Assembly (NCBI GenBank): GCA_902566705.1
Contig: CACFJT010000009.1
Location: forward strand, 1-51,857
Origin: an uncultured Pelagibacteraceae bacterium
GTDB taxonomy: Bacteria > Pseudomonadota > Alphaproteobacteria > Pelagibacterales > Pelagibacteraceae
DNA: 51,857 nt
Direction of reading: 5' to 3'
Shown here: piece after piece, positions 17,793 through 20,443 of the stretch
Position numbering within the stretch: the first letter of the stretch is position 1
How the letters are laid out: each line of letters begins with the position of its first letter
Position numbers and translations under genes: made by a program
Notes under the pieces: model-generated
The model's input: only the letters and a program-made list of their open reading frames with translations
Told to the model about the DNA's origin: nothing
The model's database searches: none

Positions 17793-18383
17793 ATGAAAAC
17801 AAAAAAAATTATCATAATTTTATTTTTTTTGAGTTTTTTAAATGGTCAAGTTTATTCTATGGAACCAGACGTATTTGTACAATCTACGGTAAATAGAGCA
17901 TCTCAAATTTTGTCAAAAAATATAACTAAGAAACAAAAAATTAATGAACTTAAAATAGTTGCAAAAGAAACTGTAGATATAAAGGGTGTCGGCTTTTACT
18001 CTATAGGATCCGTAAGAAAAAGATTGAACGAAGAACAAATGCAAAAATATTCAGAATTATTTGAGGCTTATTTTTTAAAAAGTTTTTCAAGCAGATTGTC
18101 TGAGTATACTAATCCAAAAATAGAAGTACAAACAAAAGAAGTTTTAAATAAAAATTATACTATTGTTAATAGTATATTGGTTGGCACATCTGAAAGACCT
18201 GAGGTAAAAATTGATTGGAGAGTTTACACAAAAAATCCTGATAATCCTTTAATTAGAGACTTAATTATTGAGGGCCTAAGTTTAGCAAGAACTCAAAAAG
18301 AAGAATTTGCATCAATTTTAAATTCAAATGATGGTGATATAAATAGTTTATTTAGAGCTTTAGAAAAGTTTTCTGAAAATTAA
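17793..18383 (+). CDS. mlaC: MlaC-family periplasmic phospholipid carrier
   Basis: Soluble shuttle that carries phospholipid between the MlaA complex in the outer membrane and the MlaFEDB transporter in the inner membrane. The 196 residues start with a signal peptide (KKIIIILFFLSFLNGQVYS). They contain family features such as VDIKGVGFYSIGSV, LNEEQMQKYSELFEAYF and DWRVYT...IRDLIIEGLSLARTQKEEF. It is in the same short operon as mlaA. The ABC-transporter genes mlaFEDB are not in this window, so the inner-membrane half must be encoded elsewhere. Confidence 0.87.
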   Translation: MKTKKIIIILFFLSFLNGQVYSMEPDVFVQSTVNRASQILSKNITKKQKINELKIVAKETVDIKGVGFYSIGSVRKRLNEEQMQKYSELFEAYFLKSFSSRLSEYTNPKIEVQTKEVLNKNYTIVNSILVGTSERPEVKIDWRVYTKNPDNPLIRDLIIEGLSLARTQKEEFASILNSNDGDINSLFRALEKFSEN

Positions 18384-18384
18384 T

Positions 18385-18402
18385 ATAATTTATATAAATT
18401 AT
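18385..18402. terminator. AT-only palindrome between mlaC and the tRNA pair
   Basis: ATAATTTATATAAATTAT is a perfect 18-base palindrome in the 23-base gap between the convergent mlaC and tRNA genes. It could act as a weak bidirectional transcript end, but it has no GC and may be chance in so AT-rich a sequence. Confidence 0.25.
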
Positions 18403-18406
18403 TAAA

Positions 18407-18483
18407 TGGTGGGCCCGCCAGGACTCGAACCTGGGACCAATACATTATGAGTGTACTGCTCTAACCAACTGAGCTACAGGCCC
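18407..18483 (-). tRNA. tRNA with CAT anticodon (tRNA-Ile2 or elongator tRNA-Met)
   Basis: A full cloverleaf of 77 bases with encoded CCA. The acceptor is GGGCCTG/CGGGCCC, the D-loop has the usual GG, the anticodon loop is CTCATAA (anticodon CAT), and the T-arm is CCAGG-TTCGAGT-CCTGG. The GGGCC acceptor resembles that of alphaproteobacterial tRNA-Ile more than elongator Met, so it may be the isoleucine tRNA whose C34 is changed to lysidine by TilS. Sequence alone does not settle this. It lies 57 bases after the tRNA-Val gene in the same direction. Confidence 0.92.
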
Positions 18484-18540: not shown

Positions 18541-18615
18541 TGGTGGGCCGTGTTGGTTACGCTCCAACTACCCCTGCAATGTCAATGCAGTACTCTACTA
18601 TTGAGCTAACGGCCC
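18541..18615 (-). tRNA. tRNA-Val(GAC) with non-canonical D- and T-loops
   Basis: The 75 bases fold into a cloverleaf with perfect stems: acceptor GGGCCGT/ACGGCCC, D-stem GCTC/GAGT, anticodon stem CTGCA/TGCAG around TTGACAT (anticodon GAC), T-stem GTTGG/CCAAC, discriminator A and encoded CCA. The two loops that form the tRNA elbow are abnormal. The D-loop is AATAGTA, only seven bases and without the GG pair. The T-loop is AGCGTAA instead of the TTC-A consensus. It starts four bases after the rpoD stop codon and is probably cut from the rpoD transcript. It is either a divergent or decaying tRNA, or the loops carry assembly errors. Confidence 0.75.
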
Positions 18616-18619
18616 CAGA

Positions 18620-20443
18620 TTAGCTTTCAAGAAAACTTTTTAATTGCTTAGATCTACTAGGATGCTTTAATTTTCTTAAAGCTTTAGCCTCGATTTGTCT
18701 TATTCTTTCTCTAGTCACAGAAAATTGCAGACCGACTTCTTCAAGTGTATGGTCTGTATTCATTCCAACTCCAAATCTCATCCTAAGTACTCTTTCCTCT
18801 CTTGGTGTAAGAGTGGACAAAATTTTTGTAGTTGCCTCACCAAGATTTGATTTGATTGCCTGCTCTAATGGAGCTAAAGCTTTTGTATCTTCAATAAAAT
18901 CACCCAAACTACTATCTTCCTCATCTCCAACAGGTTTCTCTAATGAAACAGGTTCCTTAGAAATCTTTAGAACTTTTCTTACTTTATCTAGGGGCATCCT
19001 AAGCTTTTGAGCTAATTCTTCTGGTGTAGCTTCTCTACCAAATTCACTTAATATTAAACGTTGTGTTCTAACAATTTTATTTATAGTTTCAATCATATGA
19101 ACGGGAATTCTTATGGTTCTCGCCTGATCAGCGATTGATCTTGTTATAGCTTGTCTAATCCACCAAGTTGCGTATGTTGAAAACTTATACCCCCTTCTGT
19201 ACTCAAACTTATCAACAGCTTTCATTAAACCAATATTTCCCTCTTGAATTAAATCTAAGAATTGCAAACCTCTATTTGTATATTTTTTTGCAATAGATAT
19301 TACTAATCTTAAATTAGCTTCAACCATCTCCTTTTTTGCTATTCTAGATTCTTTCTCACCTTTTTGAATTCTACTAACTAATTTTTTAAAATCCGTAACT
19401 GAAATTCCTAATTTATAACTAATTTCAATCAATCTCTCTCTAATATTTTTGAATTCTTCCTTATTTTTGTTAAAAAACTGCTTCCAAAGATTGTTGGTAT
19501 CTAAAAATTTTTTTAGGTTAGGATTAATCTCATTGCCAATATAAAATTTAATAAATTCAGTTCGTGGTATTTTTTGATCCATTGCAAGCCTTAGAAGATT
19601 TCCTTCTAGGGAAATTATTTTTTTATTTTCTACATAGTGTTTTTGTACAAGCTCCTCTAGAACTGAGGGTGATAATTGTAAAGACTTAATATTTTCTAGA
19701 ATATCATTAACTATTTTTTCATACCCTCTCTCTTTTGCTGGAGAAAAAGTTTGAGAGTTAAGAACACATTTTAACTTTTCATTTTGGTATTTTATTAATT
19801 TATTGTATTCCCTAGTAAGAATATTTACTGTTTTTAAAACTTTTGGTTTTATTTCTGTTTCCATTGCTGCAAGAGTTGGATTAAAATCATCATCCTCATC
19901 ACTTGAATTTTCGTCTTTATCAACTTCCCCTGAATTTTTTTGTTTTGCACTTGGTCCTGTTGTTTCATCTTCCATGTAATTAGTATCAATATCAATTATC
20001 TCTCTTACTAAAATTTCATCTTTCTGTAGTTGATTATTCCATTCAAAAAATTGTTGAGCAGTTATAGGGCTTTGTGAAAGTGCAATTAACATTACATCTT
20101 TTCCAGCCTCAATTCTTTTTGCAATTGCTATTTCCCCTTCTCGTGATAATAGTTCAACACCTCCCATTTCTCTGAGGTACATTCTTATAGGGTCATCACT
20201 TTTTTCTATTGTTTTACCCTCTTCTTTGTTTGAATTATCTTTTTTTCTAAGAATTTTAAAATCAGATTTCTTTTCTACTAAAGAAATGTTTTCGTCCAAG
20301 ATATGAATAAATGCCTGGGCTAAATTTTCATCTGAAAGATTTCTTTTTCCTAAAGACTTACTTAACTCTTCATAAGTAATGAAACCCCTATGAGTTCCTC
20401 GACCCATTAATCTAGCAAACGATTTTGTAATAATTCTTTCCAC
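18620..20443 (-). CDS. rpoD: Primary RNA polymerase sigma factor (sigma70)
   Basis: Housekeeping sigma factor that directs RNA polymerase to -35/-10 promoters. The N-terminus holds region 1.1 ([13 protein letters not shown]). Region 1.2 includes [21 protein letters not shown], followed by an acidic non-conserved insert. Region 2 is [22 protein letters not shown] through [18 protein letters not shown]. Region 4, in the last 70 residues, includes [10 protein letters not shown] and [21 protein letters not shown]. The 607-residue frame opens with GTG. No ATG is available upstream before a stop eight codons away, and the first ATG (codon 14) would cut region 1.1. The tRNA-Val gene begins four bases downstream. 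Confidence 0.95.

Follow-up and report, generated by a model that had tools for sequence, protein, structure and literature searches.

The window, which is the whole stretch of 51,857 nucleotides analysed here, carries on its reverse strand a tRNA-Val(GAC) gene with an encoded CCA and an alternative elbow (18541-18615), which is identified by both ARAGORN and Rfam and is kept in relatives; the identity and the CCA had been proposed in a preliminary description from the letters alone and are borne out. The anticodon GAC lies at 18581-18583 (ARAGORN, reverse strand). On the same strand, rpoD (18620-20443; NCBIfam NF004208, 782 bits against a cut-off of 555) ends with its stop codon 4 nt before the tRNA begins, and because of this spacing the tRNA would probably be cut by RNase P from a transcript shared with rpoD. 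The flanks of the tRNA hold two promoter-like matches, against an average of 1.5 in shuffles, and no terminator was found there. A second tRNA, with anticodon CAT (18407-18483, reverse strand; ARAGORN, Rfam), serves as a comparison neighbour, and its loops are canonical, as had been noted before. When scored with the Rfam tRNA model (RF00005), as had been proposed, tRNA-Val(GAC) reaches 53.6 bits and the CAT tRNA 72.7, with a gathering threshold of 29. A weak Rfam match to HPnc0260 at 18296-18444 (42.3 bits, below its gathering threshold of 59) overlaps the CAT tRNA in antisense and is probably the complement of that tRNA only.

Read 5' to 3' in its segments, the gene is GGGCCGT TA GCTC AATAGTA GAGT A CTGCA TTGACAT TGCAG GGGTA GTTGG AGCGTAA CCAAC ACGGCCC ACCA. 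All the stems are intact, but the pairing is not perfect throughout, as had been stated, since 10-25 is a G.U wobble. In standard tRNA numbering (our own assignment), the D-loop AATAGTA (18596-18602, reverse strand) is A14 A15 U16 A18 G19 U20 A21, with A18 at 18599 and G19 at 18598, and the T-loop AGCGTAA (18557-18563, reverse strand) is A54 G55 C56 G57 U58 A59 A60, with G55 at 18562 and C56 at 18561. Position 18 has A in place of G and position 55 has G in place of U, so the canonical G18/U55 is absent (this A18/G55 combination is called the swap from here on); the canonical U54/A58 is likewise replaced, by A54/U58, and A48 (18569, reverse strand) faces A15 (18601), an unusual 15/48 combination. 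The canonical bases of the outer elbow, G19 and C56, can both be read in the sequence. The earlier statement that the loops have “no GG” and “no TTC-A” is thus right for the strings but not for the outer pair G19-C56, which is intact in standard numbering. In its score above the gathering threshold, its cloverleaf, its anticodon arm and its CCA acceptor (Rfam, ARAGORN) the gene looks like an elongator tRNA, and the marks of a pseudogene, i.e., broken stems or a broken anticodon and lack of conservation in relatives, are absent.

The contact between G18 and pseudouridine 55 is described as highly conserved and near-universal in tRNAs, and the modification enzymes of the elbow have U55 (TruB, the near-universal pseudouridine-55 synthase), U54 (TrmA/TrmFO) and G18 (TrmH) as their target bases. 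In the canonical elbow, as set out in the accessible parts of two sources (PMC4810234, PMC7912444), the pairs are G19-C56 and U54-A58, and G18 is inserted between residues 57 and 58, where it contacts pseudouridine 55. By comparison with these accounts, tRNA-Val(GAC) has the same cloverleaf, 7-nt T-loop, G19, C56 and purine 57, and presumably the same L-shape, but differs in A18/G55 and A54/U58 and offers none of the target bases of TruB, TrmA/TrmFO and TrmH.

The genome from which the window comes (1.117 Mb, 87.7% complete, in 37 contigs, the window being contig 9) is taken to be that of a SAR11 bacterium (Pelagibacterales), judging by the small alphaproteobacterial genomes of its relatives and by named Pelagibacteraceae that share its type of Phe gene. 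It has 28 detected tRNAs, 25 of them with canonical loops. Among the 28 are exactly one Val(GAC) and a normal Val(TAC); a second, canonical Val(GAC) gene was looked for in the same genome and not found. The other two exceptions are Thr(GGT) (L020), with T-loop GTCAGTA, i.e., a G54/G58 combination in an otherwise normal elbow with GG in the D-loop and U55, and Phe(GAA), the sole Phe gene found in the genome, with D-loop AGGAGUA and T-loop UGCGAAU, which has the A18/G55 swap and keeps U54/A58. Unless another Phe tRNA is hidden in the missing 12% of the genome, the elbow of this single Phe gene must support translation.

Relatives were compared within the window's genus (g1), its family (f1, which includes g1 and other genera) and a second family of the same order (f2). 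A search of 61 genomes, the window's own and 60 relatives, gave 30 loci, of which 27, the window's included, have Val(GAC); all 27 have the T-loop AGCGTAA and 26 have the D-loop AATAGTA, the exception being L024 with AATAGAA. The stems of these genes vary by paired changes (e.g., GGGACTG...CAGTCCC in L038; also L049-L051) and the loops remain constant. The alignment of relatives that had been called for thus shows conserved loops, and the joint change in both loops is not due to chance. Together, the 61-genome search, a pattern search across the order (397 genomes) and a search of sister genera retrieved 64 Val(GAC) loci, of which 32 are swapped, 32 normal and none mixed, so that 18 and 55 change together; the normal ones are 30 loci from f2 plus G315 and G344. 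The 397-genome pattern, which left positions 18, 19, 54 and 55 free, matched in 273 genomes, and among the matches listed (149 rows of the 273, counted by hand) f1 has 106 swapped and two normal genes, f2 has 41 normal genes, and there are no mixed ones.

Normal loops at the same locus in a relative, which had been named in advance as evidence against an abnormal elbow, do occur, but once: in G344 the Val(GAC) gene occupies the same position next to rpoD and shares the anticodon arm, and its two loops are both of the normal type, which argues for coupling of the loops and not for decay. The acceptor and T arms of G344 are identical to those of G315, so that recombination is likely. The gene is also frequently lacking: no pattern match to Val(GAC) was found in nine g1 genomes that are 90-97% complete, nor in 48 of the 53 sister-genus genomes searched, while the five that do have one (three of genus g7, two of g8) are all swapped. 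On these comparisons the Val(GAC) gene seems dispensable, yet conserved where it is kept.

The Phe(GAA) gene follows the same rule. In 54 genomes of g1 with a match it is swapped in 28, normal in 26 and mixed in none; the first set had a match in 38 of 73 genomes (21 swapped, 17 normal) and the second in 16 of 22 (7 swapped, 9 normal), the elbow state covered being that of the matching genomes, with 35 of the 73 and 6 of the 22 giving no Phe pattern match. In f2 (42 rows from 48 genomes) and in the other f1 genera (14 rows) every Phe gene is normal, so that g1 is the only genus of the order in which a swapped Phe gene was observed, and none of the 110 rows is mixed. In a tree built from rpoD at 19 loci, 10 of them with a known Phe state, a single change accounts for the Phe swap, and because of this the rows within the genus do not count as independent events. 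Positions 18 and 55 thus change together, from G/U to A/G; mixed cases are few anywhere and none was seen in SAR11, where the result covers the Val and Phe genes.

The possibility that the element marks the end of the rpoD message as a tRNA-like processing signal, with no translating role, had been raised to explain the odd loops and is now highly improbable: rpoD does lie directly upstream in 19 of the 27 swapped Val(GAC) loci (18 of them over long alignments, the other being L035, at the edge of its contig) as well as in G344, and its stop lies only 4 nt away here, but eight loci (L041-L045, L049-L051) are away from rpoD with the same loops, the anticodon arm and CCA are complete, and this type of elbow is found again at sites far from rpoD. 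In four of the linked loci (L027, L034, L035, L039) the tRNA seems to begin with the last G of the TAG that ends rpoD, which would also fit such a signal; an RNase P cut there would leave the rpoD message with an incomplete stop codon.

A decaying spare, i.e., a pseudogene on its way out and tolerated since Val(UAC) reads all four valine codons, had likewise been suggested. The “spare” half of this suggestion is partly right, in that a normal Val(TAC) gene exists and a Val(GAC) match is missing in many relatives, and the score 19 bits under that of the neighbouring CAT tRNA would fit decay as well. The decay half fares badly, because the loops are identical throughout the genus while the stems have compensating changes, the CCA is intact, the loops change jointly and never singly in the Val and Phe rows seen from SAR11, and the same 18/55 swap is found in the only Phe tRNA of the genome. 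Conservation appears largely to refute this reading, and we consider it very unlikely.

The remaining option of the preliminary description, a rewired elbow, is supported, and to judge from the comparative data it is likely that the gene encodes a functional tRNA-Val(GAC) with an alternative, coupled set of D-loop/T-loop contacts. Two observations weigh against this reading: Val(GAC) is absent from many related genomes and thus dispensable there, and nine true viral tRNAs with mixed A18 and U55 exist (see below). The A18/G55 elbow looks like a working alternative rather than a product of decay.

The swap is also found in cells well outside the order. Named genomes were scanned with a pattern designed to skip the genus's own Val and Phe genes, which gave at least 118 stretches with at least 127 A18/G55 matches, lower bounds that yield no frequency. 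Among the matches listed are DPANN archaea, mostly with tRNA-Ala, Microgenomates-type bacteria with tRNA-His, Pelagibacteraceae with Phe, Actinomycetes with tRNA-like genes of many anticodons, Nostoc-type cyanobacteria and Verrucomicrobia. The verrucomicrobial matches fall mostly within tRNA-rich stretches made up mainly of G55-type tRNAs: in loci picked for having one, the G55-type outnumbers the other by 53 to 0 in five Opitutia loci and by 119 to 28 in 19 Verrucomicrobiia loci. These stretches, among them L263 and L298, are chromosomal. The idea of an essential verrucomicrobial tRNA-Ile with an A18/G55 elbow was dropped, as the loci concerned are tRNA-rich stretches dominated by the G55-type.

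One explanation for the origin of the swap is that loss of TruB licensed it, in that U55 was left unmodified and the G18-U55 contact was then traded for A18-G55. TruB (PF01509) was found in all genomes searched of genera g5 (4/4), g6 (4/4), g7 (5/5) and g11 (1/1), in 16 of 20 genomes of f2 and in 14 of 14 controls, but was not found in g1 (0/35), g8 (0/12), g9 (0/5), g10 (0/1) or g12 (0/1); the g1 genomes without it include several that are single-contig and 99-100% complete (e.g., G012, G062 and G063). The same genus, g1, is the one in the order with a swapped Phe gene, and the distribution of TruB would fit a relaxed need for U55. Furthermore, among 30 carrier genomes hand-chosen from the 118 listed scan loci (three of them Pelagibacteraceae), all ten of at most 1.1 Mb lack a TruB match, a link confounded by genome reduction and by incompleteness. 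The fit is partial, as 19 of the 20 large carriers, mostly Verrucomicrobia with tRNA arrays, do have TruB, roughly one in two of the g1 Phe genes seen has a normal elbow, and g7 has TruB together with a swapped Val(GAC) (G131, G190, G361), so that loss of TruB is not required for the swap. We have therefore rejected TruB loss as the cause and keep it as a rival that is rather doubtful, the link itself being suggestive.

The swap is found in viruses too, and 18 and 55 again move together. Among 2.9 million viral contigs, A18 with G55 and G18 with U55 were each found in at least 120 stretches. The mixed combination A18 with U55 gave 14 matches with a loose T-loop pattern, nine of which are tRNAs called by ARAGORN with such loops (L208, L209, L216, L217, L218, L220, L221, L224 and L226), and three with a strict one, one of them in a misread register; G18 with G55 gave six, none called by ARAGORN, and since L215 looks tRNA-like at most one is real. 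The swapped viral genes include Gly(GCC), CAT, Ile(GAT), Phe(GAA), Val(GAC) and others. On 120 viral loci chosen for carrying a swapped tRNA, the 763 tRNAs that remain after dropping 92 chosen by the pattern and 49 identical ones comprise 632 GG/UC, 81 AG/GC, no AG/UC, 40 others and 10 GG/GC, the last by a crude “contains GG” rule and mostly with AGGAG or odd loop lengths. On 116 viral loci chosen for a normal tRNA, the 664 tRNAs with a 7-nt T-loop comprise 628 GG/UC, 4 AG/GC and 3 AG/UC. The notion that the swap is common among phage tRNAs was accordingly rejected, given 4 of 664 on contigs chosen for normal tRNAs and 81 of 763 from contigs chosen for swapped ones: A18/G55 is a minority class in phages, yet 18 and 55 move together.

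These data bear on the possibility that the gene is a domesticated phage tRNA, i.e., that a gene from a phage or a tRNA array replaced a lost host Val(GAC). In its favour, Val(GAC) with the loops ATTAGTA/AGCGTAA exists in phages (L139, L194, L199), sister genera are mostly without a Val(GAC) match, and the A18 G19 plus G55 C56 pattern, searched for in 190 genomes drawn from the same class, was found in the window's own genome alone (0 of the 189 others), against at least 120 A18/G55 stretches in the viral contigs, samples that differ in size and kind. Against it, blastn gave no DNA match to tRNA-Val(GAC) in 50,697 phage records at E 0.1, the swapped class is small even in phages, and the swapped Phe gene has the same anticodon stem as most normal Phe genes in the genus, which points to a change in place. 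No swapped tRNA was found on four named phage loci, taken from 34 phage records that match the Phe gene. Such an origin is possible but, all in all, we think it unlikely. Two of the viral contigs with a swapped Val(GAC), L139 and L194, are rich in tRNAs and also match permuted and alphaproteobacterial tmRNA.

Returning to the coupled elbow, positions 54 and 58 also covary within the swapped class. In 201 distinct A18/G55 cores, 54/58 is U-A in 98, A-U in 58, G-G in 28, C-A in 12, C-C in 4 and G-U in 1, while in 124 normal cores it is U-A in 118, A-U in 5 and U-G in 1. The mutual information between the two positions in the A18/G55 cores is 1.41 bits, whereas none of 2000 shuffles exceeds 0.12, a contrast inflated by shared ancestry. 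All five main types are present in both phages and cells, and tRNA-Val(GAC), with A54/U58, belongs to the covarying set U-A, A-U, G-G, C-A and C-C. A48 facing A15, as in tRNA-Val(GAC), coincides with A54 in 15 of 18 cases. G19, C56 and G57 were fixed in the cross-kingdom patterns, and their constancy there reflects how the matches were chosen. A GNRNA-type pentaloop for the T-loop (G55 C56 G57 (U58) A59) was considered and rejected, as position 59 is often U or C (AGCGTTA, AGCGTCA).

Since G19-C56 is kept and 18/55 is swapped as a unit, we suggest that A18 still slots between 57 and 58 and there meets G55, replacing the G18-pseudouridine-55 contact, and that A54 and U58 would close the T-loop as a swapped pair; a reverse Watson-Crick geometry at 54/58 would fit the set U-A, A-U, G-G, C-C and C-A. 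In a coarse-grained simulation, as far as it is described in the accessible part of the source, the U54.A58 restraint and one of G18.U55 and G19.C56 can be removed with the native shape kept (PMC4191394), so that the G18.U55 restraint can be dispensed with as long as G19.C56 is present, in keeping with tolerance at 18/55. The L-shape would be kept, and charging, EF-Tu binding and ribosome binding would work, with tRNA-Val(GAC) presumably decoding GUC/GUU alongside the normal Val(UAC) tRNA; we infer use of the swapped elbow in translation from its conservation and from the Phe case. Without the target bases of TruB, TrmA/TrmFO and TrmH, such an elbow would be free of these modifications.

Two natural precedents resemble tRNA-Val(GAC) in part, so far as the accessible portions of their descriptions go. 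Eukaryotic tRNA-Ala with R15/A48 and A54/A58 (PMC7566577) likewise has A48 facing purine 15, A54 and purine 60, but there 58 stays A and no 18/55 change is described in that portion. In tRNA-Pyl and mitochondrial tRNAs (PMC7609411), the GG and TpsiC strings are likewise lost from both loops, but tRNA-Pyl also lacks G19 and C56 and has a 5-nt D-loop, whereas Val(GAC) keeps G19, C56 and a 7-nt D-loop and has a matched swap. In the accessible text of a study of SAR11 tRNA signatures (PMC3937112), a word search finds no mention of valine, the T-loop or the elbow. The literature searched, which was mostly without subscription journals, yielded neither an account of an A18/G55 elbow nor one of TruB being lost from SAR11. 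Work by Zagryadskaya, Kotlova, Steinberg and others on E. coli suppressor tRNAs from elbow libraries reportedly found that tRNAs with altered D/T-loop contacts can be active; those are laboratory selections, whereas Val(GAC) is a natural conserved gene. The staphylococcal tRNA-Gly for cell-wall synthesis is natural and has both GG and TpsiC altered, but it avoids the ribosome, whereas here the only Phe tRNA found is swapped, so translation presumably uses the swap.

On a wider and decidedly more tentative view, which we would put at somewhat short of even, A18.G55 may be a second stable solution of the tRNA elbow, modification-free and with a free choice of 54/58 pair, which has arisen many times. 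It would be used by the only Phe and the Val(GAC) tRNAs of many Pelagibacter-type bacteria, by certain tRNA-Ala of archaea and tRNA-His of Microgenomates, and in phage and verrucomicrobial arrays, and would be favoured by TruB loss or by escape from enzymes that read the elbow (modification enzymes, nucleases). A natural matched swap in ocean bacteria, phages and archaea suggests that the G18-pseudouridine-55 contact can be replaced as a unit; the swapped tRNAs are natural double mutants for testing elbow function, and one genus holds the same presumably essential tRNA, Phe, in both elbow forms. Gene finding is affected as well, as ARAGORN misses part of the swapped tRNAs on short segments, calling no tRNA for 29 of 121 viral A18/G55 matches.

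Finally, the actinomycete matches in Streptomyces, Actinomadura and relatives (L235, L239, L241, L247, L255, L312) are tRNA-like genes with the T-loop GGCGGAA and varied anticodons. No CCA was seen in them, and they lie mostly just before an ATG, with four in tandem in L241.
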